DNA from: Planctomycetota bacterium
GTDB lineage: Bacteria; Planctomycetota; Phycisphaerae; Phycisphaerales; SM1A02
Direction: 5' to 3'
Length of the DNA: 64,000 bases
Assembly (NCBI GenBank): GCA_022574595.1
Contig: JACZRS010000018.1
Location: forward strand, 1-64,000
The notes under the pieces are model-generated. The model did no database searches, was not told the origin of the DNA, and saw only the letters and a program-made list of their open reading frames with translations. Positions 12,501 to 56,970 of the stretch are shown in pieces (position 1 is the stretch's first letter; each line of letters starts with the position of its first letter). The translations under genes were made by a program, and so were the position numbers.

Positions 12501-14936
12501 ATGTCAAGAAGCATAATGAGTACAATTAAGTTTGCCTTACTTGCGGCATTGACAATCGCCTGTTGGTTCCGTACGTCGACGGCGCAGTTTGCGAAATTCG
12601 TTGACGAGACATCACAGCGAAGCGTCGTCGCCGGCAACCTCTTCGCAACCGACAGCCAGGAGAAGGACTACGCCTGGGGTGATGTAGATAAGGATGGCGA
12701 TATCGATCTGGTCATTGTCCGCAAGGAACCGTTCTCCACAGCGGGCAGAAGGGTCAACCTTTTGTTGATCAACGAAAACGGTGTGCTGGTTGATCGCACG
12801 AGCGAATTCGCCTCAGCCTCAGATGTGTTCGGCGATCTGGGTTTCAATACGCCAACAAACGATCGTGACGTGGTTCTGGTTGACGTCAACAATGACGGCT
12901 GGCTGGATATTGTCACCTCGCCGACAATCACCGAGGGCTTGGCGAAACATATCTCACATCCGCGTGTTTATATCAATCTTGGGGACGACCCGCCCAAAGG
13001 CGGCGTTTGGCAGGGGTTTGAATATCAGGATGCGCGCATTCCGGAAATGCATCCCACGTCGGGACCGCGTTTCTGCGGGATGGCCGCTGGCGATCTTACA
13101 GGCAATGGGCTACCCGATCTTTACTTCGCCGACTACGATGATGGCGTCCCTGGGCAAACTTACGACTACCAAAACAAATTGTTGGTGAATGTTGCCAACG
13201 GCATTTTCTTTGATGAGAGTTTGACGCGCATGGGCAGTTTGTTTGATTATGGTGGCGTAGTCGGAATCGAGAACTACCTTTTCTCGAGTTTTGGGACGGC
13301 CACTGCGATCGGAGATATGAATAATGACGGGGTGAACGACGTAGTTAAGCAGACGGCGTTACATCCACCCTACCATTTGGCTATCGTTTACAACGACCCG
13401 GAAAACGAGGGCTTCTTTAACCAATACGATGTGATTAACACTGCTGGGGGTTACCACGTTTCGATCGGCGAACTCAACAACGACGGCATCCTGGATATCG
13501 TTGTCACACAAGACGGTGCCGACGAGTACATGCTTGGCACCACACTCGACGCTAACGGCAGGCGAAACTATCTTACAATTAACTTCCCCAACGTTAGCCA
13601 AGGATTCGGCGGAAACTCAGTGATCGCCGATCTCAACAACGATGGCCTCAACGACGTCGTCATTACGGGAGTCGATGTCCATAATTCAGGATGTAGTGCA
13701 AAGACACACATCTTCCGAAACCTCGGTGGCGACATTCCTCCATTCTCCACCGAGGATCTGACGGTCGGCATTCCGGAAAACTTGCTTAGGGGCGGACACG
13801 ATGTGGCCATTTTCGACCTCAACGGCGACGGTTGGCTCGATATTGTTCATGGTCGATGTAACAGCACGGAGATCTGGATTCAACATCCTTACGGAATAAT
13901 CTTCGATTACCCTCAGGACTTGCCAACGTTCGTGGCTCAAAACATGCCGTTTATAGTGCAGGCACAACTTACCCCAATTGGAGGGACAATTGCATCCGGA
14001 ACACCTGCATTGCATTACGCAATAAACGATGATGTTTTCACCAGTGTCATGATGCAACATCTAGGGGGTAACCTCTATGAGGCCGCGCTGCCACCTGGCA
14101 CTTGTCTCGATAGGATCAATTATTATTTCTCAGCCACCATGAACGAAGAAAAGGTGTTGAGCATTGATCCCCCCGATGCCCCGACAGTGTCATATACTGC
14201 TGTAGTTGCAGATGGACTAGAAGTCACTTATCTCAACAATTTCGAATCAGGCGATGACGTTTCTCACTGGGCGATCGAGAGTGATGCTTCATTGGTAACC
14301 GGCGAGTGGGAACAGGCAGATCCGAACGGAACGTTTTGGTTTGGACAGGCTGCACCGGAAGATGACGCGACTCCAGGAGAAGGCAACGTCATGGCATTTG
14401 TCACTGACAACGGACCTCCAGGTGGTGGAGTTAACGCCAATGATGTGGATGGCGGACCAACCTATCTCATATCGCCATCGTTCGATCTGCAAGACACGAA
14501 TGCCATGATCTCCTACGCACGCTGGTTTTTTACGATCGGTGGTACGCCGGATGCGCTAACCATAGAAGTGTCCAACGACGGCTCAAATTGGGTGATAGCG
14601 GAGACGGTCGATGGCCCAGAAAGCGAATGGTATATCGCAGAGTTTCTTGTAAGCGATTTTGTAGAACCATCTCAAAGTGTTCAGGTTCGGTTCTCTACCG
14701 CCGATGCTGATTCTTCGATTACCGAAGCGGGCATCGATGACTTCCAGGTTGAACAATTCATTTGTGATCCAGCCTGCCTGGGCGACCTCGATGGCAACGG
14801 CAGCGTAGACACATCTGATCTGCTTGAACTCTTCGCTCAATGGGGTACAGCAGGACCAGCTGACTTCGACAAAAGTGGTACTGTCGATACTGCCGATCTA
14901 CTCATCCTCTTCGCCAACTGGGGGCCGTGTCCGTAG
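12501..14936 (+). CDS. Secreted FG-GAP repeat protein with GC-type dockerin tail
   Basis: Predicted exported protein of 811 residues. A signal peptide (about 1-28, cleavage near STAQ) is followed by at least seven FG-GAP/VCBS-type calcium-loop repeats (DVDKDGDIDLVIV, DVNNDGWLDIV, DMNNDGVNDVV, DLNNDGLNDVV, DLNGDGWLDIV), forming a beta-propeller at residues ~50-460. A beta-sandwich region follows, then a jelly-roll-like module (FESGDDVSHWAIESD... to FRIDDFQV-type end) at ~580-750, and two dockerin-like repeats at the C-terminus. ATG 12516 is an alternative start. Such proteins are probably surface-displayed or released and may bind polysaccharide or protein. No catalytic motif is visible. Confidence 0.85.
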   Translation: MSRSIMSTIKFALLAALTIACWFRTSTAQFAKFVDETSQRSVVAGNLFATDSQEKDYAWGDVDKDGDIDLVIVRKEPFSTAGRRVNLLLINENGVLVDRTSEFASASDVFGDLGFNTPTNDRDVVLVDVNNDGWLDIVTSPTITEGLAKHISHPRVYINLGDDPPKGGVWQGFEYQDARIPEMHPTSGPRFCGMAAGDLTGNGLPDLYFADYDDGVPGQTYDYQNKLLVNVANGIFFDESLTRMGSLFDYGGVVGIENYLFSSFGTATAIGDMNNDGVNDVVKQTALHPPYHLAIVYNDPENEGFFNQYDVINTAGGYHVSIGELNNDGILDIVVTQDGADEYMLGTTLDANGRRNYLTINFPNVSQGFGGNSVIADLNNDGLNDVVITGVDVHNSGCSAKTHIFRNLGGDIPPFSTEDLTVGIPENLLRGGHDVAIFDLNGDGWLDIVHGRCNSTEIWIQHPYGIIFDYPQDLPTFVAQNMPFIVQAQLTPIGGTIASGTPALHYAINDDVFTSVMMQHLGGNLYEAALPPGTCLDRINYYFSATMNEEKVLSIDPPDAPTVSYTAVVADGLEVTYLNNFESGDDVSHWAIESDASLVTGEWEQADPNGTFWFGQAAPEDDATPGEGNVMAFVTDNGPPGGGVNANDVDGGPTYLISPSFDLQDTNAMISYARWFFTIGGTPDALTIEVSNDGSNWVIAETVDGPESEWYIAEFLVSDFVEPSQSVQVRFSTADADSSITEAGIDDFQVEQFICDPACLGDLDGNGSVDTSDLLELFAQWGTAGPADFDKSGTVDTADLLILFANWGPCP

Positions 14937-25703: not shown

Positions 25704-27189
25704 ATGATAACAGGCGAACTCAAATCTAAAGTTGACAAAATCTGGGACACTATGTGGTCTGGGGGTATCTCCAACCCACTTTCTGTCATCGAGCAGCTAA
25801 CTTACCTGCTGTTTATCAAGAGGCTCGACGAGCTGCATACGCTCAAAGAGAAAAAAGCTGCCCGCACTAAGAAACCTATCGAAGATCCAGTCTTCAATTC
25901 CAAGCAGAACGCCATGCGATGGTCGCGCTTTAAGGATACAGCACCGGAGAAGATGTTCGAGACAGTGCGCGATAAAGTCTTCCCCTTCATCAAGACACTC
26001 GGAACCAAAGGCGATGCCGATGGCGAAGGAGGCAGCACCTATACCCACCACATGAAGGATGCGCTGTTCATGATGCCCACAGCCCGAGTGCTGGCAAATG
26101 TAGTGGATCAACTTGACAGCATAGATATGTCAGACAGCGATACCAAAGGCGACCTCTACGAATACATGCTGGGCAAGATCGCAACAGCCGGGCAGAACGG
26201 TCAGTTCCGTACTCCGCGCCACATCATCAAGTTGATGGTGGATATGACTGCCCCCACACCAAAGGATGTGATTTGCGACCCCGCATGCGGCACTGCGGGC
26301 TTTCTTATTGCGGCCTCGGAATACCTTCAAGATCATCACAGCGATACCATCTACAAAAACGCTGCTGCGAAGCGCAAATTTAACGACCACACTTTCCACG
26401 GCTACGATTTCGACAACACAATGCTGCGAATCGGCAGTATGAACATGCTATTGCACGGCGTAGAAAATCCCGATATCCGCTATAAGGATTCACTGGCTGG
26501 AGCAGTTGAACTTGATGAGGAAGAATACTCGCTCGTGCTTGCCAATCCGCCGTTTGCGGGCAGCCTTGATTATGAAACCACTGCAAAGGATCTGCTGCAA
26601 GTTGTTAAGACTAAAAAAGACAGAACTGCTTTTCCTGTCATTGTTTCTGCGCCTCTTGCAAATAGGTGGCCGGGCTGCGGTCATTGTGCCAGATGGTGTG
26701 CTTTTTGGTTCATCAAAAGCGCATAAAGCTCTGCGCAAAATGCTTGTTGAAGATCAGAAACTTGATGCGGTCATCTCCATGCCCTCTGGTGTGTTCAAGC
26801 CTTATGCGGGTGTATCTACTGCCATTCTCTTATTCACCAAAACCAACTCAGGTGGCACAGACAAAGTCTGGTTCTACGACATGCAGGCCGATGGCTACTC
26901 GCTTGATGACAAACGCACCGAACAGCCCGACAAGACTGATCTACCCGACATTCTAAGGCGCTGGAAGAATCGTAAAGGCGAAGCTAAGCGTAAACGCACG
27001 GACCAAAGTTTTCTTGTGCCCAAGTCTGAGATTGCGGGCAACGACTACGATTTGTCACTTAATCGATATAAGGAAGTAGTCTACGACGCAGTTGAACATG
27101 ATCCGCCAAAGGTAATTCTTAAACGACTGGCAGAGTTGGAGAAGGACATTGAAATAGGAAGGAAGGAATTGGAGGGGATGTTGGGATGA
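25704..27189 (+). pseudogene. hsdM: Type I restriction-modification methyltransferase subunit, frameshifted
   Basis: Modification subunit of a type I R-M system; it would transfer a methyl group from S-adenosylmethionine to adenine in the site chosen by HsdS. The 5' frame carries the N-terminal helical domain, motif I (DPACGTAGFLIAA) and motif IV ([11 protein letters not shown]). At an A6 tract (26613-26618) the frame shifts; with five A residues the protein would continue [18 protein letters not shown] into [17 protein letters not shown] and reach the stop at 27187-27189, giving about 494 residues, normal for HsdM. As written the gene gives a 340-residue product lacking the C-terminal third. 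The lesion may be real, a sequencing error in a homopolymer, or a phase-variable tract. Confidence 0.88.
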
Positions 27190-28370
27190 AGTTATCAGTA
27201 AATGGAAATAAAGAGGTCCCAATCGCAAAATTTTGTCGAACAGGCAGTGGTGGAACTCCTGCCCGCTCAAAATCGGCTCGTTACTACGGTGGCTCGATAC
27301 CATGGGTTAAGTCAGGAGAGCTGCGTGAGTCTGTAATCACAGAGACGGAGGAGTCCATCACGAAAGAGGGATTAAGGGAATCAGCTGCAAAGCTCTTACC
27401 AGCAAATACATTACTTGTAGCGTTGTATGGAGCTACTGTTGGCCGAATTGGGATTCTTGGAATTGAAGCAGCTACTAATCAGGCAGTCTGCTACATTATC
27501 CCAGACGAAACAAAAGCTGACCGCAGATACCTTTTCCATGCGCTGCAATCCAAAGTCCCGTTATGGTTGAGTAAGCGTGTCGGAGGCGGACAGCCAAACA
27601 TTAGCCAGGGAATCATCAAGGATACATCTATCTTCTTGCCGCCACTGGCGGAGCAGAAGCGGATTGCGGGGATTCTGGATGCGGCGGATGCGCTGCGGGA
27701 CAAACGCTGCGAGTCCCTCGCCCAGCTTGACACCCTCCTCCAAGCCACTTTCCTCAACATGTTCGGTGACCCGGCAGCCAATCCGATGGGGTGGAAAAGT
27801 AAGAGGCTCGGTGATGTGTTGTCACTAATTACATATGGCTTGACCGTTCGGCCAACCTACCAAACTACAGGCGTGCCACTGGTCTCTGCTAGCCAGATAA
27901 AGTCAGGCTATGTGGACCTGAACGCGGCGCACAAAATCTCACCCGACGACTTCGATAGGTTGCGCACCAAATGCAAACCGCAACATGGAGATGTTCTTTT
28001 CAGCAAGACTGGCGCAATTGGGCACAGCGCAATTCTTCAAGAGTGTGGAAGAATCGCTCTTTCACAAAACGTAGCTAGGCTTGTCTTCAAAGAAGACCAG
28101 ATCCATAACCTCTGTGGATTGTATTACTTGCGAACAGACTATATTCAGAGGATGTCGCAGCGTCGGGCTAAGGGAAATGCCCAAAAGGACTTGCAGCTGG
28201 GTGAGATGGAAGTATTTCCAATCTATGTCCCACCACTCGACCTCCAACGCCGCTTCGCCTTCATCGTTGAAACCGTCGAACAACAGAAAACTCAGCAACT
28301 CGCCCACCTTGCCGAGCTGGATGCACTCTTCGCCTCACTCCAACACCGCGCATTTCGAGGGGAACTCTGA
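27186..28370 (+). CDS. hsdS: Type I restriction-modification specificity subunit
   Basis: 394 residues; determines the DNA target of the HsdMS methylase and HsdRMS nuclease. Two target-recognition domains (about 10-150 and 200-340) are each followed by a conserved helix: [20 protein letters not shown] with [20 protein letters not shown] in the middle, and [20 protein letters not shown] with [17 protein letters not shown] at the end. The ATG overlaps the hsdM stop (ATGA). The gene is intact. Confidence 0.92.
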
Positions 28371-28373
28371 GCC

Positions 28374-31300
28374 GTGATGCAAATATCCGCAAACTTTGCA
28401 TTCCTGAAGCAGGAGTTTCCGCACGCAGCTGAGAGCGCGAGTTATGCGGAGCAGCATGTCTACGGCGATCCGCGGGCCTCCTGTTTCCATGCCCGGCACG
28501 CGCTTGAGCGACTGGTCAAGCGAGTCTACAAAGTGGACAAATCCTTGAGTCCGCCTAAGGTCCAGAACCTCGATAGCTACCTTATCGAGCCTGCCTTCCG
28601 AGCAATCGTACCCGAGGTCGTTTGGCAGAAGGCAGAGTACATCCGCAAGGCGGGCAATGTTGCGGTGCATGGCAACAAAACACCCGCACCTGAAAAAGCA
28701 TTGGATGTTCTGCGCGAACTGGCGCATGTCCTCTACTGGGCAGGTCGCACATACCTGCGCAAGGGCGCAGAGAGCCTGCAAGGGAAGACCTTCGACGAAA
28801 CACTAGTCCCGAAAGCCAATTCACATGCTGCGCCCACCAGTGTCGAGGAATTGAAAGCCCTTAAAGCAGAGCGGGATGAAGCAGAAGATGCCCGCGAGGA
28901 AGTTGAACGCGAACTAGAAAAACTGCGTGAACGACTCGCTGCCATCAAGGCAGAGAACCAGGCAGTCCCCGATACGCACGACTGGAACGAAGACAAGACC
29001 CGAAAGCTCATTATTGACCTTGATCTCTTGCGCGCAGGCTGGCCCTTGGATAAAAAGGAAGACCGTGAATATGAAGTAACGGGCATGCCAAACAAGGAAG
29101 GCATCGGCTTTGTGGACTATGTACTTTGGGGTGATGATGGTAAGCCCCTTGCAGTGGTGGAGGCAAAGAGGACAACCGTCGACCCGGAAGTTGGGCAGCA
29201 GCAAGCGAAGCTCTACGCGGATTGCCTGGAGGCAATGCACGGCCAACGCCCGATCATCTTCTACACCAATGGTTACAAGACTCGCATATGGGATGACCTG
29301 GCCTACCCACCGCGCACGGTTGCAGGGTTCTATAAGAAGGATGAGTTGACTTCTTTGATTTTGCGCAGAGATGCAAGAGCGAAATTGGATGTGACTCAGG
29401 TCAAGGATGCAATCGCAGGGAGGTACTACCAGAAGCGTGCTATCGGCAGTATTGCAGAGCAGTTTACTCAGTCGCACCGCAAGGCGCTGTTGGTGATGGC
29501 GACCGGCAGTGGTAAGACACGAACCGCCATTGCATTGGTGGACCTGCTGCAAAGAGCGGGCTGGGTGAAGCGGGCGCTGTTCCTTGCCGACCGTGTATCA
29601 CTGGTGAATCAGGCTGTTAACGCATTTAAGGCGCACTTGCCTGAATCCAGCCCGGTAAACTTGGTGACGGAGAAGGACAAGACCGGGCGGGTCTATGTCA
29701 GCACATATCCGACCATGATGGGCTTGATCGACGAAACGAAGGGCAACGAGGCGCGCTTCAGTGTCGGGCACTTCGATCTTGTCATCATCGATGAAGCGCA
29801 TCGCTCGGTCTTTAATAGGTATGGCGCGATATTCCGCTACTTCGACTCACTGCTTGTGGGTCTGACCGCGACACCAAGCGTGCAGGTGGATAGGGACACC
29901 TATGATTTGTTCGACCTAGCACAGGGCGTGCCGACGGATGCCTACGAACTAGTGACTGCGGTTACTGATAGTTTTCTTGTTCCTCCGCGCGTGCAGCAAG
30001 TTGATTTGAAGTTTCCGCGCGAAGGCATTGATTATAACTCACTCAGTGATGAAGAGATGGAACAGTGGGAGAACCTTGATTGGGGCGATGATGTGGACCC
30101 GGACGCCCTGCCGGATAAGGTCAACGCCGCAGCGTTAAACCTTTGGCTCTTCAATAAGGATACGGTAGACAAGGTGCTCCAGCACCTGATGGAAAACGGC
30201 CACAAGGTTGAAGGCGGCGATCGACTCGCAAAGACGATTTTGTTTGCGCGCAATCAGGATCACGCTGAGTTTATTGAGGAGCGGTTTAATCACCACTACC
30301 CGCAGCACGCTGGGCACTTCGCCAGGATCATCTCACACAAAGCTACCTATGCCCAGAGCATACTTGACGACTTCTCGCAGAAGAACAAAGCTCCGCATAT
30401 TGCGATCTCAGTTGACATGCTCGACACGGGTATCGATGTGCCGGAGGTTGCGAATCTTGTCTTCTTCAAACCCGTGTACTCGAAGATCAAGTTCTGGCAA
30501 ATGATTGGGCGCGGCACACGATTGTGCCCAGACCTCTTCGGCCCAGAAGATGACAAGCAGGATTTTCGTATTTTCGACTTCTGCTTTAACTTCGACTTCT
30601 TCAAAGAGAATCCTGATGGGATTGAGCGAGGTGGCGGTTTGCCACTTGGTACGAGGCTGTTCCGTTCCCGCGTGCAGTTGCTGAGCCATATACAGGCAAC
30701 GCCGGATCTGGACGCTGACGCCAAATTGAAAGGCTCGTTGACTGATGGTCTGCATAGTGAAGTCGCGGCAATGAACCGAGAGAACTTCATCGTGCGTTTG
30801 CACTTGGAATCTGTTGAACGATTCCAGAACCGCAAAGCTTGGGAACAACTCAGCGAAGGCGATCAAGAAGCGCTGCAAAGTGAAGTGGCGGGATTACCCA
30901 GTGAGCTTGCCACTGACGACATCGAATGCCGCCTATTCGACCTCACTGCATTGCGCATGCAGTTGGCACTTGTTGAGGGAGATATGGCGACTTTAGAGAC
31001 TAACCGCCAGCGCGTGGTAGAGATTGCAATGTTACTTGAGGAGAAGACGACGATCCCGGCAGTAAGGGCGCAGCTTGAATACCTGGCCGCCATACAGGAA
31101 ATCAGCTTCTGGGATGGGATCAATCTGAACGATCTTGAGGAGATGCGTTTGCGACTCCGTGGGCTGATGCCGTTTCTCGACAAGAAGAAACGCAAGATTG
31201 TGTATACCGATTTTCAGGATGAGGTCATTGGGGTGCGCGATGAAGAAATTGCGTTCATGCCAAAGATGACTGGCGCGCAGTACGAGAAGAAGGTGAAAGA

Positions 31301-31763
31301 GTTCCTGAGTAGTCATCTTAACCATATCGTGATCCACCGGCTGCGTACCAACCAGCCACTGACTGAGACGGATTTGAAAGGGCTGGAATCAACCCTTGTC
31401 GAAATTGGAGAAGCGGATGGAGAATCGCTGCTCTCTGGATTGCTGGCGCGCAGTGAGTCGCCTTCGCTGAACTACTTCGTGCGCAGCCTTGTGGGACTTG
31501 ACCGGGGAGCAGTGCAAGATGCGTTTTCTGGGTATTTGCAGGATCGCAGTCTCACCTCGCCGCAAATCCGCTTCATCGAGATGATAATCGAGCAGCTGAC
31601 CGCTAGGGGTGTGATGGATGCCGCAGCGCTTTACGAGCCGCCTTTTAGTAACCTACATGTAGGTGGACCTGATGAACTGTTCGCTGGGAAGGGCGACGTC
31701 ATTGCCGGAATCTTCGAGACCCTGAAATCCGTGCAGCCATCGACTCAGAGCAGCACGGGTTGA
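28374..31763 (+). CDS. hsdR: Type I restriction enzyme motor and nuclease subunit
   Basis: 1129 residues (GTG 28374 or ATG 28377). N-terminal helical DUF4145-like region, a coiled coil (about 155-200), then the restriction nuclease domain with D248 in GFVDYVLWG and E263/K265 in VVEAKRT, the PD-(D/E)XK pattern. The translocase follows: Walker A MATGSGKTRTA (about 375-384), DEAH box (473-476), and helicase motif VI near QMIGRGTRLCPDLFG. The C-terminal ~250 residues match the EcoEI-type HsdR C-terminal domain. All catalytic residues are present, so restriction activity depends on whether a working HsdM is made. Active HsdR without HsdM protection would not be expected to assemble. Confidence 0.92.
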   Translation: MMQISANFAFLKQEFPHAAESASYAEQHVYGDPRASCFHARHALERLVKRVYKVDKSLSPPKVQNLDSYLIEPAFRAIVPEVVWQKAEYIRKAGNVAVHGNKTPAPEKALDVLRELAHVLYWAGRTYLRKGAESLQGKTFDETLVPKANSHAAPTSVEELKALKAERDEAEDAREEVERELEKLRERLAAIKAENQAVPDTHDWNEDKTRKLIIDLDLLRAGWPLDKKEDREYEVTGMPNKEGIGFVDYVLWGDDGKPLAVVEAKRTTVDPEVGQQQAKLYADCLEAMHGQRPIIFYTNGYKTRIWDDLAYPPRTVAGFYKKDELTSLILRRDARAKLDVTQVKDAIAGRYYQKRAIGSIAEQFTQSHRKALLVMATGSGKTRTAIALVDLLQRAGWVKRALFLADRVSLVNQAVNAFKAHLPESSPVNLVTEKDKTGRVYVSTYPTMMGLIDETKGNEARFSVGHFDLVIIDEAHRSVFNRYGAIFRYFDSLLVGLTATPSVQVDRDTYDLFDLAQGVPTDAYELVTAVTDSFLVPPRVQQVDLKFPREGIDYNSLSDEEMEQWENLDWGDDVDPDALPDKVNAAALNLWLFNKDTVDKVLQHLMENGHKVEGGDRLAKTILFARNQDHAEFIEERFNHHYPQHAGHFARIISHKATYAQSILDDFSQKNKAPHIAISVDMLDTGIDVPEVANLVFFKPVYSKIKFWQMIGRGTRLCPDLFGPEDDKQDFRIFDFCFNFDFFKENPDGIERGGGLPLGTRLFRSRVQLLSHIQATPDLDADAKLKGSLTDGLHSEVAAMNRENFIVRLHLESVERFQNRKAWEQLSEGDQEALQSEVAGLPSELATDDIECRLFDLTALRMQLALVEGDMATLETNRQRVVEIAMLLEEKTTIPAVRAQLEYLAAIQEISFWDGINLNDLEEMRLRLRGLMPFLDKKKRKIVYTDFQDEVIGVRDEEIAFMPKMTGAQYEKKVKEFLSSHLNHIVIHRLRTNQPLTETDLKGLESTLVEIGEADGESLLSGLLARSESPSLNYFVRSLVGLDRGAVQDAFSGYLQDRSLTSPQIRFIEMIIEQLTARGVMDAAALYEPPFSNLHVGGPDELFAGKGDVIAGIFETLKSVQPSTQSSTG

Positions 31764-37209: not shown

Positions 37210-38511
37210 ATGGCATCAATCAGCAAAGACCCTAATGGGCTCAAGCGCATCCAATTCATCGGTGCGGATAGCAAGAGAAAAACAATTCGTCTAGGTAAAG
37301 CCTCGCTGCGCTACGCTGAATCAGTCAAGGTTAAGGTTGAGGATTTGGTTGCAGCGAGTATCACCTGTCATGCACCTGCTGATGACACAAGTAGGTGGCT
37401 TACTAATCTTGATGATGCTATGTACGGGAAGCTTGCAAATGTTGGTTTGGTTATGGCACGAGGTGCTGTAAGGCTTGGGCCATTCACACGAACATATATC
37501 GACGGTAGGAAAGACATCAAACCTCGAACTAAGATTAATCTAGATCGGGCGCGTACATATCTACTATCGTTCTTTGCTGCTGACCTGCCAATGCGCAACA
37601 TTACTCCTGGCGATGCAGAGAATTTCCGCATGCATCTGATCGGCGAAGGGAAGGCCGAGAATACTATTAGGCGAGCCATTGGACGAGCTCGACAATTCTT
37701 CAATGCAGCAAAAAGCCACGGTTTACTCGTTACTAATCCGTTTGATGGCATCAGCGTTGCTATGCGGACTAACCAGGATCGTTTCCACTTCATCAGCCGC
37801 GAAGATGCTCAGAAAGTGATAGATGCTTGTCCTGATGTACAGTGGAAATTGATCTTCACTCTAGCACGCTTTGGAGGACTTCGGTGTACCTCTGACGTAC
37901 TCGCACTATCCTGGGATGATGTTAATTGGGAACACAGTCGCATACGAATACCAAGTCCAAAAACTGAACATCACGAAGGCGGCGAGAGCCGGATGATCCC
38001 CCTATTCCCCGAGTTGCGACCGCATCTATTGGAAGCTTTCGAGGATGCTGAACCGGGAACAAAGTATGTCATAACGCGCTACCGTGATATTGGGACAAAT
38101 CTACGGACACAGATGCACAGGATTATCAACAAGGCAGGACTGGAGCCATGGCCAAAGACATTCCAGAATCTTCGCAGTACACGGCAGACAGAATTGGCGG
38201 AGGAATTCCCATCGCATGTTGTTTGCAAGTGGCTTGGCAACAGTCAACTGGTCGCGACGAACCACTACCTACAACTGACCGATGAGCATTTCGCTAAGGC
38301 CATCATCGACAATGAACAGCCCGATTCAAAAGCGGCGCATAATGCGGCGCAGAAGGCGCACGAAACGACTGGAATCGACGAGAAAGTTAAGTCCAAAAAA
38401 GAAAACGAAACTGACTTATCTTCTGCCAGTTTCGAGAGTTATCGTGAGCCTTCTGACTACTTCACAAATGCGAAAGTGCCCTGCATAGGACTCGAACCTA
38501 TAACCTGCTGA
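37210..38511 (+). CDS. int: Tyrosine recombinase integrase
   Basis: 433 residues. N-terminal SAM-like core-binding domain (about 105-185) and catalytic domain with R225 (FGGLRCTSDV), Lys in SPKTEHH, R322 in FQNLRSTRQTEL (the usual His of HxxR is Gln or Asn, as in many planctomycete integrases), W341 in KWLGNS and the nucleophile Y353 in NHYLQL. The final codons (CIGLEP-type reading) run into the tRNA-Lys fragment on the other strand, as expected for an integrase next to its own attachment site. It would integrate and excise the island that extends leftwards. Confidence 0.9.
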   Translation: MASISKDPNGLKRIQFIGADSKRKTIRLGKASLRYAESVKVKVEDLVAASITCHAPADDTSRWLTNLDDAMYGKLANVGLVMARGAVRLGPFTRTYIDGRKDIKPRTKINLDRARTYLLSFFAADLPMRNITPGDAENFRMHLIGEGKAENTIRRAIGRARQFFNAAKSHGLLVTNPFDGISVAMRTNQDRFHFISREDAQKVIDACPDVQWKLIFTLARFGGLRCTSDVLALSWDDVNWEHSRIRIPSPKTEHHEGGESRMIPLFPELRPHLLEAFEDAEPGTKYVITRYRDIGTNLRTQMHRIINKAGLEPWPKTFQNLRSTRQTELAEEFPSHVVCKWLGNSQLVATNHYLQLTDEHFAKAIIDNEQPDSKAAHNAAQKAHETTGIDEKVKSKKENETDLSSASFESYREPSDYFTNAKVPCIGLEPITC

Positions 38512-38523
38512 TTAAGAGTCAGC
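38477..38523 (-). other. tRNA-Lys(CTT) 3' fragment, attachment site
   Basis: On the minus strand 47 bases match the 3' part of a tRNA: anticodon arm GCTGA-CTCTTAA-TCAGC (anticodon CTT, Lys), a 5-base variable region, T arm ATAGG-TTCGAGT-CCTAT, acceptor strand GCAGGGC and discriminator A. The 5' half (acceptor GCCCTGC and D arm) is absent upstream, where sequence identity to tRNA stops at the anticodon stem. It overlaps the integrase 3' end and is best read as the core of an attachment site. Confidence 0.7.
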
Positions 38524-40702: not shown

Positions 40703-41070
40703 TGGGCAGAAAAGGTATCGTTATGATTATCCAAACCGCAAAGGCTGGAAGAATTCATCTTGGCATCTTTTCTACCCTGACATCTCCTATGAAGCCGCGC
40801 TCTTGGGTTGGAATGATCGTCGTATGCGCCACTTCCAAGGGTTTCCCCTAGTCAACCAGTTAGGCGTCACCTGTGTAGGGGACAGGAACCGGGCTAGTCG
40901 TAGCTATGTTCCGTGAATCGCTTAATATCATTGCGGATGGACAGGGCTCGCATACCTCAGCATCGACCGATTCGCAGCCACAGTCCATTTTGTCCCAAGA
41001 GTTCGATGCGGATATGATATTTACATTACGCGGTGAATCCTTCTTTGGGCGCTGACTTGAGGAATTGCGC
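40703..41070. other. Intergenic, nothing recognised
   Basis: No gene, repeat or structured element that I can support between the tyrosinase and the AbiTii-type gene. Confidence 0.4.
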
Positions 41071-41940
41071 ATGGGCTTAGTAAACGAACTACAAGAGAGT
41101 GCGGAACGGGATGATGTCCAGACGCTGTTGCGGAAAGCTAAGCGCGTGTCGGCAAAGCTCCGGCGGGACGACATCTCTAAATGGCTCAATAACGAACAGA
41201 ATGGATATCCGGATGGGGCCAAAGTGCCTTCTTACCGTGATATCAGTATTTCGTTTTGCTACAACACGAACGGGAATTTGCCGGCCGGGTATGGCCAACT
41301 GATGCGCGGCATCGTACCTCTCCCGGGTGTTGGCGATGGCCTCACTATTCCAGTCGGCCACCCTATCAGCACCATTGCCGATTGGGTTGATTCGTACAAC
41401 GCAGGACGTGGTCAGCTTTATGAAACTCTTGATAGAGAGAAGGCCGACTTGATACGCAGCAAACTCACGATTAATCGCCCCGATCTGTTTGAGCAAGTCA
41501 CATTGATGATGCAACTAAACGAATCGGGGATCAGGGGGATTCCTGAGCAGGTCAAGAACAGAGTACTGGACTGGGCGTGTGACTTAGAGACAGCAGGCGT
41601 GACTGGTGATGGCTACTCATTCTCAAAAACCGAAAAGGAAACCGCCAAGACTGTGGTCTTCAACATCAGCCACAGCACCATCGACCAGTTAAACAGTTCC
41701 GGCACAAACCTACAAAGGCAAATCCGGATGGTCAACTTCAATATCAAGAACTCGACGGTAGGGCAAATTAGCGAATCCGGTTCCAATATTCAAGTGACCG
41801 GCACAAGTCCGGAACGCAAGACCGTTTGGAATCACTTCTGCTCGTGGTATGGGCTCTTGGGAATAACGATTGGGATCATCAGCGCTATCGGGGGTTGGTA
41901 CGCGCTCCACGTTCAATATGGGTTGTGGTTCTTCGGATGA
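41071..41940 (+). CDS. AbiTii-domain membrane protein
   Basis: 289 residues, ATG 41071 with GAGG nine bases upstream. Residues 1-175 match the AbiTii pattern: GLVNELQESAERDDVQTLLR, KAKRVSAKLRRDDISKWLNN and GYPDGAKVPSYRD. This domain is named from abortive-infection proteins, and its mechanism is not established. The middle has two similar segments (NISHSTIDQLNSSGTNLQ and NIKNSTVGQISESGSNIQV), perhaps beta-solenoid turns. A C-terminal hydrophobic helix (GLLGITIGIISAIGGWYAL) anchors it in the membrane. A role in phage defence is inferred from the domain name and the nearby defence genes. Confidence 0.75.
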   Translation: MGLVNELQESAERDDVQTLLRKAKRVSAKLRRDDISKWLNNEQNGYPDGAKVPSYRDISISFCYNTNGNLPAGYGQLMRGIVPLPGVGDGLTIPVGHPISTIADWVDSYNAGRGQLYETLDREKADLIRSKLTINRPDLFEQVTLMMQLNESGIRGIPEQVKNRVLDWACDLETAGVTGDGYSFSKTEKETAKTVVFNISHSTIDQLNSSGTNLQRQIRMVNFNIKNSTVGQISESGSNIQVTGTSPERKTVWNHFCSWYGLLGITIGIISAIGGWYALHVQYGLWFFG

Positions 41941-47581: not shown

Positions 47582-48550
47582 CTAGCTATTGCATGTGCCG
47601 GTAAATTCAGTATCGGCTGTATAGCTCTGTGCACTACCTCCAGAACAAGTATCATCATCGTGTGCAAAGGAGCCTGTTTCTGGAACAGCCTCAAAATCGA
47701 GGAATCCATTTGCTGCAATTTCGTCAAGGCATCCAGTGGTGGATATGTCAACGCCGTCAGCTATCAAGATCTTGGCATCCCTGCAAAGTCTGAAGTTTCC
47801 TGTCAAGCCGGTAGCATCCGCATTGAACTTTAGTACGGCGTTACTGTTGGTACTGATTTCAAAATTTCCTGAACCGGAGAGAGAAACGCTTGCTCCAAGG
47901 CAGAGAGTTCCCGATTGATTGGCTCGGATCGTGCCATCGTTTACGAATGCTGCCGATGCGGCGACTATATCCATCTTTACAGACATTTTGCCCTGAATAA
48001 GCATCGAGCTTGTGAGAATGGAATTAGCAATCTCGATTCTTGCATCATTGTGCTGACCCTCAATACTGCCATCTCCATCAACCGTGGCATCCGCTGTGAA
48101 CGCCAGTACGGATTTGCTGGCCTTTAGGAGGATCTGCCCGGTGATATCCATCGTGACATCAGCACCAGTGACCTTGAGAACAGAATTACTCGCGTCGCTT
48201 GCAAGATTCACAACCCCATCTATATCGTGCTGCGCGGTGCCGTCCAGGGTGAGCATTTGGCCTGTGATAGTAAGCACGCCGCCACTATTGACTGTGAGTG
48301 TAGCAACTACTTCATCCTGATCATCAATGACAGGAGGAAGACCTGTTGTAACCTGTACAATGATCGCGATGTCTCCAGACACGGGGTAGCCATGATCACA
48401 GGCGACTGATGACCAGTTGCCAGTATCACGCCAGTTGCTAGTAGTTGCAGTGGCCTTCCATGTGAAGGTGCAGCCTGCATTGGCTGGACTAGCAATAACA
48501 ATTCCTAGAACTGTCGTAAGCAAACTGCTAAAAAATGTGGTACGTTTCAT
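47582..48550 (-). CDS. Secreted beta-rich protein, family A member 1
   Basis: 322 residues. Signal peptide MKRTTFFSSLLTTVLGIVIA with cleavage near NAG, then a repetitive beta-rich body (VNSGGVLTITGQMLTLDG; GEI-like turns; EGQHNDARIEIANSILTSSM; GNFRLCRDAKILIADG). The pattern suggests a beta-helix, as in adhesins or polysaccharide-binding proteins. The gene at 55935-56903 is a paralogue of exactly the same length with the same signal peptide and the marker GQHNDAKIDIA, and the one at 57527-58423 is more distant. Their upstream regions are also related. Function unknown; surface or matrix protein likely. Confidence 0.8.
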   Translation of the reverse strand: MKRTTFFSSLLTTVLGIVIASPANAGCTFTWKATATTSNWRDTGNWSSVACDHGYPVSGDIAIIVQVTTGLPPVIDDQDEVVATLTVNSGGVLTITGQMLTLDGTAQHDIDGVVNLASDASNSVLKVTGADVTMDITGQILLKASKSVLAFTADATVDGDGSIEGQHNDARIEIANSILTSSMLIQGKMSVKMDIVAASAAFVNDGTIRANQSGTLCLGASVSLSGSGNFEISTNSNAVLKFNADATGLTGNFRLCRDAKILIADGVDISTTGCLDEIAANGFLDFEAVPETGSFAHDDDTCSGGSAQSYTADTEFTGTCNS

Positions 48551-48823: not shown

Positions 48824-48854
48824 TCATCTGTCATATGTTTAATATGACAGATGA
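48824..48854. repeat. Dispersed palindrome, copy 3
   Basis: TCATCTGTCATATGT on the left and the near-complement TAATATGACAGATGA on the right. It lies 274 bp upstream of the start of family A member 1. Confidence 0.85.
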
Positions 48855-48888: not shown

Positions 48889-49429
48889 AGTTTCGCTTTA
48901 TTTCAAATCGTCCTGCCTGCTTAAATTAGCACCTCGGCTTTGCCGAGATTCTTGGCTCAAAACATTCCGTTCGGGTGTGATGGCTCCGCCCTCTATACTA
49001 GAGAGTAAGCGGGGTCCAGTACCCGACGGACGTGGGCCATAGGCTGTGCTAAGCCTAAGCAGGTAGCGTCCGTTGGGTATTGGGCACCGCTTTTTGTATT
49101 GCGCTGAGTGCAATTCGAAGCGGAGAGGCGAAAACTTTTTGGAGTGATTTATTATGGCTTGGATGAGAAAATGACTAATTGACAACGTGGGTTTTTGCCA
49201 GTTTGGCACTGGCCCCTAAGCGCCTGTCGCTCTTAGGAAGGAGGTGTCAAGCTGGCATAGTCTCGCCTCAATATATCCATTATCGTGCCGATCAGATGTG
49301 CCAATGTGCAAATTCTGCCGGTTCAAGTCCTGTGAAAAACAAGAAAAGAATACTGGACACATGCTCGAATCTTGATGGAGCGACCAAAAATCCCTTATTT
49401 CACAGCAAATACGAGGTTTACGCGCGAAG
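48889..49429 (+). ncRNA. Candidate large structured RNA, copy A
   Basis: About 541 nt without a supported gene, matching 51121-51690 in block order. The ends pair (TTTCGC near 48892 with GCGAA near 49424). Further stems: 48933-48938 with 48942-48947; a long stem 49009-49032 with 49067-49090 enclosing hairpin 49040-49045/49052-49057; TTGCGC-TGA-GTGCAA at about 49099; CCTAAG/CTTAGG at about 49216-49239 inside a TTTGCCAG/CTGGCA stem. The core from about 49091 to 49200 and the block GCTCTTAGGAAGGAGGTGTC are almost identical to copy B, while stems elsewhere differ but still pair. The strand is assigned from copy B and is not certain. No known RNA family was recognised. Confidence 0.6.
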
Positions 49430-49632
49430 ATAAAAAGAATAGTTAATTTAGGTCATATTGTTGCTTTCTTGTACAAATATCTCACTTTACTCATGGCTAA
49501 AGCATAGCGCAATACCTGCCCGATACTTATAGCAATGGCCTTGGTGGGTTCATTAAGAAACGGCCCTGAGTGGCAGGCATAAGAAAAGAGCACCGACTAT
49601 GGTTGAATTACCACAAAGTGATGGTGTGGACT

Positions 49633-49875
49633 ATGAGTGAGCAAAAGCAAATAGATCAGCCTGGGGTGATACGGAGGATTGCCAAACTGAGCGTTGATAC
49701 GACAGCAATCGTGTTGATCGTAATGACTGCGATACTTTTGCTCTTTGCGATCTCCATAGCCGTGGGGGTTGAGATCCCCTGGCAACTCTATATATCAGCG
49801 AACACGGGGTTGGTTATTATGTTCACATTAAGATTACGATCAGAAAAAAGAGCAGTAGCAAATACAAAGAACTAG
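49633..49875 (+). CDS. Small two-helix membrane protein
   Basis: 80 residues from ATG 49633 (MSEQKQIDQPG); ATG 49621 is an alternative and Shine-Dalgarno support is weak for both. Two membrane helices: TTAIVLIVMTAILLLFAISI and WQLYISANTGLVIMFTLRL. Basic C-terminus. It overlaps the end of the minus-strand gene by four bases. No family recognised. Confidence 0.5.
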   Translation: MSEQKQIDQPGVIRRIAKLSVDTTAIVLIVMTAILLLFAISIAVGVEIPWQLYISANTGLVIMFTLRLRSEKRAVANTKN

Positions 49876-50444
49876 TTGCGTGACGACCCAGCTTGTTCAA
49901 GTTCTTTCTTGGTGTCTTCCAATTCTTTTGCCGATTCTGCGAACCCAATTCCTATGAACCTGCATCGCTTGAAAGTGCAGCCATCGGTAACTGTTGCCCC
50001 AATGGGGCATGCGCGATTTTTATCAAGCAACCAACAAGTATCATCTGGTTTAGCGGTGTAGATGCAATCCACGCGAGCGTTGTACCCGACCCCCGCTAAA
50101 ACTGCGGGCCCAATAATGACACAGTTCACGAATGTTTTTTCATAGATCTTGTTGTTAACAGCAAGATCAGCTATCCTGAAAGTCTTACCTTCGATATGTG
50201 AGCCTATAAGTTCCGTGGGAGGACTCAATCTTTGTCCAACAATTAACCAAGGCTCTAACCCAGGCCATTTTCTCCCTATCGCTTTCATAGCTGCCCACAA
50301 CAGCCACATGATCCCTGCTGCGGCAAGCATAGCTGTGAGAATGCTGTCCCCATTGAGCCACTCTAATTCAATGGCGGCATACTCTAGCCCAAGCCAGATG
50401 GCAGGTGGCAATATGGGCCTCGCTTCTTTGACGGCTTGGTGCAT
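49872..50444 (-). CDS. Membrane protein with pentapeptide-like region
   Basis: 190 residues, ATG 50444 with GGAG eight bases upstream. Two hydrophobic segments near the N-terminus (PAIWLGLEYAAIELEW; ILTAMLAAAGIMWLLWAAM) precede a soluble domain with a pattern like IEGKTFRIADLAVNNKIYEK, TFVNCVIIGPAVLAG and GCTFKRCRFIGIGF, resembling irregular pentapeptide-repeat turns. A charged coiled coil ends it (AKELEDTKKELEQAG). Function unknown. Confidence 0.65.
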   Translation of the reverse strand: MHQAVKEARPILPPAIWLGLEYAAIELEWLNGDSILTAMLAAAGIMWLLWAAMKAIGRKWPGLEPWLIVGQRLSPPTELIGSHIEGKTFRIADLAVNNKIYEKTFVNCVIIGPAVLAGVGYNARVDCIYTAKPDDTCWLLDKNRACPIGATVTDGCTFKRCRFIGIGFAESAKELEDTKKELEQAGSSRN

Positions 50445-50795
50445 AGTAGATGCTCCAGAATAGTTCCTGAGCATCCTATCGCGTCTTGGCTAATGTTCAT
50501 AATCACCTAGATAGCATTAGAAAAAGAGGTCAAGAAACAGAGATAGCAGCACCATCAATCAGCTGGCAACTAATCTCATCCCGGCGACAATAAGTTCAGA
50601 CGTGAGGAACGATTTTATTTGGCTGCCTGTGGCGTTAGTTTTTCCATACTTTGAAGGAAATCCTACCGGAATATTGCCAGATGATAGGCCTTTTCAGTGC
50701 CATATCCCCATGTTGGCTATTGGCCTCATAAATATTGTAGGAATGTGACTTATCGTCCATAGACTCATTGACGACAAAGGTTTACCTATGCATGT
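50445..50795. other. Intergenic, possible gene relic
   Basis: A frame of about 70 codons is open at roughly 50520-50747 (QLATNLIPATISSDVRNDF, then IWLPVALVFPYFEGNPTGIL) but has no start codon with a ribosome-binding site. It may be a decayed gene. Nothing else is seen. Confidence 0.3.
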
Positions 50796-51032
50796 ATGCC
50801 CCCGAAAAAACAGCTGGCACTCAGGAAGCGTCTCGGGAGGGCGGTGCGCAAACTACGTAAGGATCTGGATATCTCACAGGAAGAACTTGGCGCAAGGGCT
50901 AGTCTTGACAGAACTTATATCTCAGATATCGAGCGAGGAAAGCGTAATCCTTCACTTGATATTATCGCTGGGATAGCAAAGAGCCTAAAGGTCGAGCTAA
51001 GTCAACTGTTTCGGATGACAGAGTCCCAATAG
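50796..51032 (+). CDS. XRE-family HTH regulator
   Basis: 78 residues. ALRKRLGRAVRKLRKDLDIS, QEELGARASLDRTYISDIER and GKRNPSLDIIAGIAKSLKVE give a textbook Cro/C1-type helix-turn-helix, similar to stand-alone phage and R-M controller proteins. It lies just upstream of structured RNA copy B. Its target is unknown. Confidence 0.85.
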   Translation: MPPKKQLALRKRLGRAVRKLRKDLDISQEELGARASLDRTYISDIERGKRNPSLDIIAGIAKSLKVELSQLFRMTESQ

Positions 51033-51120
51033 AGCTTTTTGAGATTATTTTCAATTTTAAGGGATAATGGGGTTGCTTATAGAGCGCATGGGATGTAGTA
51101 TCATCGTCGACAAGTAAATA

Positions 51121-51690
51121 TGCGGTTTCGCTTTATTTGAAATCGCCGTGGCTGATCAAAGTACGAATCCGGCATTGCCGGAGATAATGGGGCTACGGCG
51201 TTCCGACGGGCGGAGCAGCTCCGTTGCTTTCGAGTGCATAACATCTTCGTTAGCTTGCGGGGTCTGTTCGTCCGACGGACCTCCTGCCCCAGGATTTCGT
51301 ACTCCTGATCAGCCGGTTGGTCCGTCGGACTAGCGGACCCCGCATTTTTGTTTTGCGCTGAGTGCAAATCGAGGTGGAGCGATGAAGACTTTTTTGGAGT
51401 GACTTACTATGGCTTGGATGAGAAAATGACTAACTGACCAAGCGGGTATTTGCCAGTTTGATGCCAGCCCCTAAGTGCTGCCGCTCTTAGGAAGGAGGTG
51501 TCAAGCTGGCAAATTGCTCGCATCGATCTAAGTAACCCCTGAGCGATCATGGCGACAGAAAATTAATTGTGGGAGGTTCAAGACCTGTGGAATCTAAAAA
51601 AATAAAAAAACTTCATGACATATGCTCGAATCTTGATGTATTCGATAGGATGGGTTGTAATCTGCTGCAAATACGGGGTTTATGCGCGAA
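51121..51690 (+). ncRNA. Candidate large structured RNA, copy B
   Basis: About 570 nt, matching copy A. Hairpin 51168-51173/51177-51182 (TCCGGC/GCCGGA) replaces CTCGGC/GCCGAG of copy A, and the long stem 51257-51281/51319-51343 (GCGGGGTC...GACCCCGC-type pairing with GACGGACC/GGTCCGTC) replaces a different but also paired sequence; its inner hairpin is CAGGA 51290-51294/TCCTG 51303-51307. Hairpin CGGAG/CTCCG is at 51211-51223. Near-invariant parts: TTTTGCGCTGAGTGCAAATC, GGAGTGACTTACTATGGCTT, GGATGAGAAAATGACTAACT, CTTAGGAAGGAGGTGTCAAG and CATATGCTCGAATCTTGATG. It lies upstream of the LVIVD-repeat gene, so it could be a free RNA or a very long leader. Confidence 0.6.
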
Positions 51691-52060
51691 GTTGGTTAGG
51701 CTGGCGAGATTAGAACAAGGTATTTGCTCGACTTTTCTTTCACTTAAAAATCTCTTCATACGAAATTTCATAGAAAGATGTTTGCATTGCGCAAAGCATG
51801 CCGATACTCTTGAAATAGCCCGTGTGCTAGATTCTTTTTGCGGGCTTGAAGGTGGCAGTATTGTGAAGCTCGGCTGGGATAATCTTTCATCCCCAGGAGA
51901 TGGTTCAAGTAGTCCGCGCGCTAACCGAGCCTCAACCGATGTAAATGCCCAGTCAGATAGCAGCGATGCCACCGGCCATATTCCGGGGTGGCTTCGTAAA
52001 GCACGAGGCATAACCTTAACAAATACCGAACAACTAAATATCCGGGTAAGGAGTCATCGC
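51691..52060. other. Leader region of LVIVD-repeat gene
   Basis: The coding frame of the next gene stays open back to about 51569, but the composition (for example LCAKLVRLARLEQGICSTFL) and the position after the structured RNA do not suggest a secreted protein, and a strong start is at 52061. I treat it as untranslated leader. Confidence 0.45.
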
Positions 52061-55934: not shown

Positions 55935-56903
55935 TTATGGGCAGCTTCCGAGTGTTTGATCGCTGTTATAGCTCACTGGAGACCCGCTATCGCATAGAGT
56001 TCGAAATGCGAACGTGGAACTATTCTCAATGTCAATGAAACCTTTAGGAGAACTAGCGGCGCTATCCACCAGTTTACCAACAGTAGTGATGTTAGCGTTG
56101 AACAGCATCTTGGCACAGTTATCGAGTACGAAAGTACCCACAAGACTCGTAGCTGCCTCATTGAATTCCAGTATGGCACTGGAAGTGATGGCCTCCCAGC
56201 TTGGGCTGCACGCTGAGGTGTCGTCTAGTGTCAATCCACTTGCAAATTTCAGTGTGCCAGCGGCATTTGCCCGCACGACACCAGTTGAGCCGTTAAGGAA
56301 TGTGGCATCACCAGATTCTTCTCGCACAGTCATCATGCCTTCTACAAAGATATTGTTGGTGAGAGTAACGCCTGCGATATCGATTTTCGCATCATTGTGC
56401 TGACCTAAGACCATGCCCTTATCGTCACCATTGAGCCCAAAGGTCGTCGCAGCACTGACCTTAAGTATTGAAGTGCTGCTAGAGAGCTTAAGTGTACCGC
56501 CGATTGGATGAGTGCCGCCGCCACCGCTTACAATCACTACACCGCTGGCTCCAATGTCTAATGTCCCACCTGCGTCGATGTCAACGCCAGCTGAGCCGCT
56601 AACCGTCAGTGTCTGAGTCGTTACTGTTAGCAAGCCGCCATTCTGGATATTGAGAACAGATACTGCTTCAGCTTGTTGATAGATGACCGGATCCTGTTTT
56701 AAAAATGCTGGGGACACAATGATCGCTGTATCACCTGACTGGGGGTAACTACTGTTTAGATTCCAGTTGGATGGTTCTTGCCAGTCGCTACCATCCGCAG
56801 TTGAGTCGCCGACCCATGTGAAGGTCGTAGCACTTGCAGGCGTTGCCATAACGATGCCGAGGGCTGCTACTAGTAAACTGCTAAAAAATGTGGTACGTTT
56901 CAT
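55935..56903 (-). CDS. Secreted beta-rich protein, family A member 2
   Basis: 322 residues from ATG 56903 (MKRTTFFSSLLVAALGIVMA, cleavage near ASA); the longer open frame upstream is not supported. Same architecture and same length as the gene at 47582-48550: FTWVGDSTADGSDWQEPSNW, VLNIQNGGLLTVTTQTLTVS, VLGQHNDAKIDIAGVTLTNN, VGTFVLDNCAKMLFNANI. Glycine-rich beta-helix turns dominate. Function unknown; surface or matrix protein likely. Confidence 0.8.
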   Translation of the reverse strand: MKRTTFFSSLLVAALGIVMATPASATTFTWVGDSTADGSDWQEPSNWNLNSSYPQSGDTAIIVSPAFLKQDPVIYQQAEAVSVLNIQNGGLLTVTTQTLTVSGSAGVDIDAGGTLDIGASGVVIVSGGGGTHPIGGTLKLSSSTSILKVSAATTFGLNGDDKGMVLGQHNDAKIDIAGVTLTNNIFVEGMMTVREESGDATFLNGSTGVVRANAAGTLKFASGLTLDDTSACSPSWEAITSSAILEFNEAATSLVGTFVLDNCAKMLFNANITTVGKLVDSAASSPKGFIDIENSSTFAFRTLCDSGSPVSYNSDQTLGSCP

Positions 56904-56970
56904 GATATACTTTCCTGATTCTTGTGGTGTGGTTCTGAATTGTGAAAACAAGACAGAAACCGCACCTGAT

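Follow-up and report, generated by a model that had tools for sequence, protein, structure and literature searches.

Two neighbouring gene-free stretches of DNA raise the question of whether they specify an RNA and, if so, of what kind. They lie in a 64,000-nt segment of a planctomycete genome (the whole stretch analysed, here called the window). A first-pass annotation had described them as two copies of a large non-coding RNA under selection. To our knowledge, few bacterial RNA classes exceed 500 nt. The functions of two of these, ROOL and GOLLD, are given as open in the part of PMC12286853 available to us. An unrelated class on an integrative element, if true, would be an independent case for what large mobile RNAs do, and the two copies, as natural variants with partly compensating changes, would offer a ready-made pair on which structure and assembly could be probed.

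Two diverged copies in an integrative element

Alignment showed that copy A (48890-49429, + strand) and copy B (51125-51691, + strand) were homologous from end to end, so that the common block order over more than 500 nt was present as annotated. The common block started with GTTTCGC and ended with GCGCGAAG in both. Among 544 ungapped columns 169 were mismatched (69% identity). Conservation was blocky: perfectly matching runs of 30, 26 and 17 columns, counted without gaps, stood next to variable blocks with 10-14 mismatches per 25, and neither the variance nor the sum of the three longest runs was matched in any of 5000 shuffles, the longest run being matched in 9 of 5000. The nearly invariant core was also found (~49091-49257 against ~51345-51511); in a segment slightly wider than this, 91% of the columns were identical. 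Alignment of the flanks outside the block revealed no clear similarity, suggesting that the RNA alone, not its neighbourhood, was the conserved unit. A search of the own genome with copy A returned A itself and two pieces of B, one at 2.3e-50 (76% identity across 320 nt) and another at 8.6e-5; the next best match was at 0.02. A 32-nt sequence at 13920-13951 had 84% identity to copy A 48940-48971 (E 0.02).

The window belongs to a contig of 100,242 bases (C15) in a 4.09-Mb genome of 31 contigs. A tRNA-Lys(CTT) gene was detected by ARAGORN at 76401-76473 of the contig, outside the window and ~25 kb from the RNA copies, and was overlapped by the end of an integrase gene (74812-76467). A 54-bp repeat at 38470-38523 (+ strand) matched contig 76394-76447, which holds the 3′ part of this tRNA gene, with 93% identity, and a second integrase gene, for a tyrosine integrase (37210-38511, + strand, PF00589), ended in it. 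This arrangement is that of two tandem integrative elements at one tRNA gene, and both copies are inside the right one (~38 kb), which is bounded by the tRNA-Lys repeats. A scan of the contig for the attachment repeat found these two places only and so gave no left boundary for the left element. Relative to the tRNA gene, the left repeat had A and T exchanged on either side of the would-be T-stem (CAAAGG...CCTTTA to CATAGG...CCTATA), with pairing kept.

The cargo of the right element included genes for a tyrosinase, an AbiTii protein, an ECF sigma factor and a Ser/Thr kinase, and no phage structural gene was recognised among the subset of its ORFs that was scanned. Of 301 genomes sampled from the order, the own genome included, 98 had integrases matching that of the right element at E<=1e-20. 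The AbiTii homologue was at 41065-41940. Type I restriction-modification genes (HsdM, S and R) were at 25704-31763, left of the repeat, and an SPP1-type phage portal protein (L071 8132-9865) was encoded elsewhere on this contig, on the far side of the tRNA-Lys gene.

Several genes surround the copies. After copy A there was a small ORF (49633-49875, + strand) with a weak PHROG match of unknown function (E 0.006); its longer form (49570-49875) had no Pfam match, and a search of plasmids with the ORF found nothing. It was followed between the copies by a 200-aa ORF (49872-50474, - strand) that matched nothing in 300 further genomes of the order (E<=0.001) and, immediately before copy B, by the gene for an XRE-type HTH regulator (50796-51032, + strand; PF01381, E 1.9e-15). 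After copy B a gene for an LVIVD-repeat protein on the + strand was read from the sequence to start near 52061. Two - strand ORFs with a near-identical signal peptide (MKRTTFFSSLL...) were located one on either side of the RNA pair, at 47582-48550 and 55935-56951.

A promoter scan of the region gave one candidate (51039-51068) against 5.4 expected by chance, and a terminator scan gave five terminator-like sites in 3.7 kb against 3.4 expected, none of them directly after copy A or copy B. About 35 nt upstream of copy A there was a 13-pair palindrome with a T-rich tail (48824-48854), terminator-like or an operator; a counterpart at copy B was not seen.

Coding potential and folding

The description of both stretches as gene-free was right in substance: mechanically called ORFs overlapped the copies, yet no reading frame stood out. 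Stops were present in every frame of both copies. When translated A was compared with translated B, the six frames scored about equally (best E per frame 1e-13 to 3e-16), as expected where DNA similarity alone drives the translated match, and 10 of 11 indels between the copies were not multiples of three. A protein gene was rejected on these three grounds, and no conserved protein reading frame crossed the A/B region. A candidate micro-ORF (MAWMRK*) with GGAG upstream was read from the sequence at 49154-49174 (B: 51409-51429; + strand); being identical in A and B, it offers no codon-level evidence.

Both copies folded strongly, and more so on the + strand. Against dinucleotide shuffles, the minimum free energies had z-scores of -4.65 (A) and -6.17 (B) on the + strand and -3.47 (A) and -4.50 (B) on the - strand, and the absolute energies favoured the + strand by 28 (A) and 44 (B) kcal/mol. 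Joint folding of the two copies gave -146 kcal/mol (z -10.5) on the + strand and -85 (z -4.9) on the - strand; the column shuffles used here kept the conservation pattern and not the dinucleotides, so that z was inflated on both strands and the gap between the strands was relied on. Thus, two homologous, blockwise conserved, non-coding and strongly folding copies inside the element were well supported.

The common anatomy on the + strand was as follows. The ends of the block paired with each other, as the annotation had it, in a closing helix P1 of 6 bp in both copies (A: 48891-48896 with 49424-49429); since its pairing was invariant, P1 gave no test of covariation. In hairpin H-a (A: 48933-48947; B: 51168-51182) the annotated exchange of CTCGGC/GCCGAG for TCCGGC/GCCGGA was real, two of the six pairs being changed on both sides. 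The annotated ~20-bp stem was likewise real in both copies and carried a small apical hairpin in each. This long hairpin, H-b, occupied 49008-49091 in A (arms 49008-49032/49067-49091, apical stem 49040-49045/49052-49057) and 51256-51344 in B (arms 51256-51281/51319-51344, apical stem 51290-51294/51303-51307), and was followed by a T run in both. The first-pass annotation mentioned neither this T run nor the tRNA-Lys element around the copies. Among 25 compared pairs of its long stem 15 were unchanged, five were changed on both sides, three on one side and two were broken; two of five apical pairs were changed on both sides. One of seven pairs of hairpin H-c (49098-49114; B: 51352-51368) was changed on both sides.

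H-c was followed by a nearly invariant linker of ~80 nt (49115-49195; B: ~51369-51450), weakly paired in the predictions and containing a 26-nt block, identical in A and B, in which the candidate micro-ORF lies. Hairpin H-d (49196-49257; B: 51451-51511), with AGGAAGGAGGTG on its 3′ side, was predicted with a probability of 0.99 in A and 0.96-1.00 in B; its lower stem, extended by hand to 19 pairs, had four one-sided and one two-sided changes and two broken pairs. Downstream of H-d came a T-loop-like GGTTCAAGNCC, then the block ATGCTCGAATCTTGATG and then the 3′ terminal block. The T-loop-like element, read from the sequence as GGTTCAAGTCC at 49320-49330 of A (GGTTCAAGACC at 51575-51585 of B), presumably resembles a tRNA T-arm. 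A and B agreed fully in the block ATGCTCGAATCTTGATG (49361-49377; B: 51622-51638) and to 92% in the 3′ terminal block (49405-49429; B: 51667-51691). No convincing fold common to A and B was obtained for the 5′ third or for the sequence that follows H-d.

The RNAalifold structure had 135 pairs, of which 19 carried changes in both partners, and part of its pairing at the 5′ end was unlike that preferred by each copy alone. The helices common to both copies (P1, H-a, H-b with its apical stem, H-c and H-d) comprised 74 pairs, 52 of them unchanged; 18 of the 22 changed pairs were kept (11 by two-sided and seven by one-sided changes) and four were broken, a favourable count because these helices were chosen and aligned by hand. 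A stricter test was employed, in which pairs were taken from one copy alone, the alignment used sequence only and the substitutions were redealt in 2000 nulls. With A-derived pairs, 24 of 39 changed pairs were kept in B, a number reached by 3 of 2000 nulls. With B-derived pairs, 27 of 65 were kept in A, which was not beyond expectation (286 of 2000 nulls). Two-sided changes counted alone were, at this threshold, striking in neither direction (177 and 187 of 2000 nulls for A- and B-derived pairs). At a looser threshold of 0.3, 48 of 94 A-derived (1/2000) and 32 of 81 B-derived pairs (231/2000) were kept; for two-sided changes only, 5/2000 (A-derived) and 156/2000 (B-derived) nulls reached the observed value.

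Retention of the A-derived but not of the B-derived pairs indicated that the shared hairpins look real, and much of the long-range minimum-energy structure of copy B is probably wrong or absent from A. The RNA structure is thus well supported in part, and the covariation between A and B, two sequences from one genome, is suggestive but not conclusive. The annotated large RNA under selection was thus supported in part: a folded non-coding RNA of the + strand held up as the best reading, and support for selection on pairs came from the A-derived set and not from the B-derived one.

Search for relatives and known families

Homologues in further genomes, proposed in the first-pass annotation as a check, were searched for by several routes, and none was found. 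When copy B was compared by blastn with 301 genomes of the order (own included), matches outside the own genome were limited to three of 23-33 nt in three genomes. In a sample of equal size and rank, by comparison, 98 genomes had a match to the integrase. No match was obtained by blastn against phages and plasmids. Six patterns, four of them exact 17- to 20-mers and two gapped, yielded 0, 0, 6, 1, 0 and 0 stretches in IMG/VR, and a core model, R1, run on the seven IMG/VR loci and the rest of the contig found nothing at E<=1. A 17-mer occurred in 39 stretches of GTDB contigs from scattered phyla, on which R1 reached 14.3 bits at best. Blastn of A and B against 46 fetched loci recovered mostly the seed, the longest among the matches listed being 36 nt. 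A 26-mer searched with <=3 mismatches in 397 genomes of the class was found in the own genome only; no other of these genomes carried the genus label of the host.

R1 was also run on phylum-wide (392 genomes) and family-wide (181 genomes) samples (both at the stricter filters, E<=0.1) and on 40 relatives (E<=1), overlapping sets each of which included the own genome, and gave two weak matches outside it. One, of 27.3 bits (genome G359, L021 1501-1584, - strand), was a near-perfect, intergenic-looking hairpin without the other blocks and was judged unrelated; this hairpin, in another genome of the phylum, has the same CCTAAG...CTTAGG tip as H-d. The other, of 17.4 bits (G291), was inside a gene judged from its sequence to be of two-component type and was rejected. 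Minus-strand R1 matches inside the copies themselves (24.1 and 18.6 bits) were taken as the reverse reading of their own palindromes. In the DNA upstream of the integrase, sampled as 14 loci in 8 of the 98 genomes (picked among the best matches with a long enough contig, hence not the eight closest), R1 found nothing at E<=10 and blastn gave one 20-nt match (E 0.44). Since the searches covered one genome per species in rank samples, in two cases with stricter filters, diverged relatives may have been missed. On these sequence searches the RNA appears to be an orphan for now, with two copies in one genome.

No Rfam family was matched at its gathering score in the 64 kb (4227 families of Rfam 15), in line with the earlier failure to assign the stretches to tmRNA, RNase P or group I or II introns. 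OLE, GOLLD, ROOL and HEARO are, we assume, among these families. Between 48500 and 52000 (3.5 kb), 11 sub-threshold matches up to E 10 were listed, all to miRNA or snoRNA models (best E 0.016). ARAGORN detected neither a tRNA nor a tmRNA in the window, on which tmRNA was rejected, and one tRNA on the rest of the contig, at the right end of the element. A retron msr-msd was rejected because the only RVT_1 match in the genome at E<=0.001 was on another contig (C8), not adjacent. In the literature, judged from the opening parts of abstracts and from passages, no published account of this RNA was recognised. Within the available text of PMC2864571, Planctomycetes gave a single match, the Rhodopirellula-1 motif in a table.

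Interpretation and comparison with known large RNAs

The reading to which we give the most weight, with a probability of about 0.47, is that the mobile element encodes a large structured non-coding RNA not yet catalogued, which as a folded RNA or an RNP probably acts in trans. Each copy would be a separate gene on the + strand for a folded, non-translated RNA of ~540-570 nt, and A and B would be diverged paralogues carried as cargo of the element at tRNA-Lys. Each would be transcribed as one discrete molecule, in which P1 and H-a to H-d may present the nearly invariant, weakly paired core and the 3′ blocks. The core would then work in trans, by RNA-RNA assembly or protein binding, and serve the element or the host, in the way that phages and plasmids may be served by GOLLD and ROOL; A and B, being diverged, would then represent alternative versions of a single particle subunit or regulator. 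From the mobile setting, the size, the blockwise conservation and the lack of common neighbours we infer an action in trans, for a class that rests on one genome since no homologue was found. A bolder version, a new large RNA machine (a ribozyme or self-assembling particle) with two paralogous subunits and the 80-nt invariant core as active or assembly site, is rather unlikely.

The likeliest of the other explanations, and still an unlikely one, is a cis-acting leader or attenuator of a downstream + strand gene (the ORF at 49633 and the LVIVD-repeat protein gene at ~52061), in which H-b and its T run would be a conditional terminator and the micro-ORF and AGGAAGGAGGTG would take part in control. 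Both copies do point at a + strand ORF, the micro-ORF with its upstream GGAG is identical in the two, and AGGAAGGAGGTG within H-d is SD-like. The main structural argument for it, and against one full-length transcript, is H-b with its T run: the 3′ arm was called terminator-like in both copies (49068-49085 in A, 51319-51339 in B), and termination at H-b would place the transcript ends near 49096 and 51349 instead of at the 3′ end of the block. However, the majority of the conserved blocks are beyond this would-be terminator, the two block ends can pair, the two downstream genes look unrelated, and ~200 (A) and ~370 nt (B) of non-conserved sequence separate RNA and gene.

The remaining two explanations are improbable, the second of them the least probable of all. 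A very divergent member of a known large family (ROOL, GOLLD, OLE or a group I or II intron), missed by the Rfam models, would fit the ROOL-like size and the mobile-element setting. GACUA and UAGUC flanking H-d in copy A, which we take to be similar to group I intron P7 around P8, were counted for it; this pairing had a probability of only 0.37 in A and was missing from the B list, and a group I intron was rejected. None of the 11 sub-threshold Rfam matches was to such a family, and the only tRNA detected on the contig was outside the window. The other explanation is a site acting at the DNA level (a transfer or replication origin, a recombination site or a decayed miniature transposon), with inverted repeats that act in DNA. 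The location in a mobile element, the roughly inverted outer 6-8 bases of the two ends and a 25-26 bp inverted repeat in each copy are in its favour. Yet folding is much stronger on the + strand than on the - strand, an asymmetry that hairpins acting in DNA would not need, no target-site duplication was seen by eye, and nearby copies of 69% identity with long identical blocks are unlike neutral remnants.

If the copies do encode a trans-acting RNA, its likenesses to known systems are analogies of setting, as no model match supports membership. A 520-nt lncRNA of L. salivarius is, we assume, a ROOL RNA (Rumen-Originating, Ornate, Large). According to the portion of PMC5643018 available, this lncRNA is on a megaplasmid, its level exceeds that of 16S rRNA and its deletion gave no definitive function. 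ROOL resembles the present RNA in length, in its place on mobile DNA, in being non-coding and in its complex fold, as far as the accessible text of PMC12286853 goes; unlike ROOL, the present RNA has no Rfam match, sits on an integrative element without a tRNA island and comes as two paralogues side by side. In the same partial text, GOLLD is a large structured RNA with a conserved 3′ and a less conserved 5′ part, and the 5′ third is variable here too, though not uniformly; many GOLLD members exceed 800 nt, and no Rfam match to GOLLD was found here. OLE, in the excerpt of PMC9723947, is similar in its ~600 nt, highly conserved nucleotides and intricate fold. OLE is described mostly from Gram-positive extremophiles or anaerobes, and again no Rfam match was obtained. 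ROOL and GOLLD are often near a tRNA island, going by what could be seen of their description, whereas the window holds no tRNA and the nearest, tRNA-Lys, is ~25 kb off.

Precedents for element-encoded RNAs, likened by setting only and from other hosts, are the most abundant transcript of the PLE satellite (IIR), which is predicted to be non-coding in the part of PMC7567579 available, and the small RNA of SGI1, which SGI1 mobilization needs, according to the title of PMC9299015. GOLLD and ROOL, in the consulted portion of PMC12286853, have their genes in prophages and phages and assemble into cages made of RNA alone. What the present copies have in common with them is carriage by a mobile element, here one marked by tRNA-Lys repeats with an integrase gene at its end.
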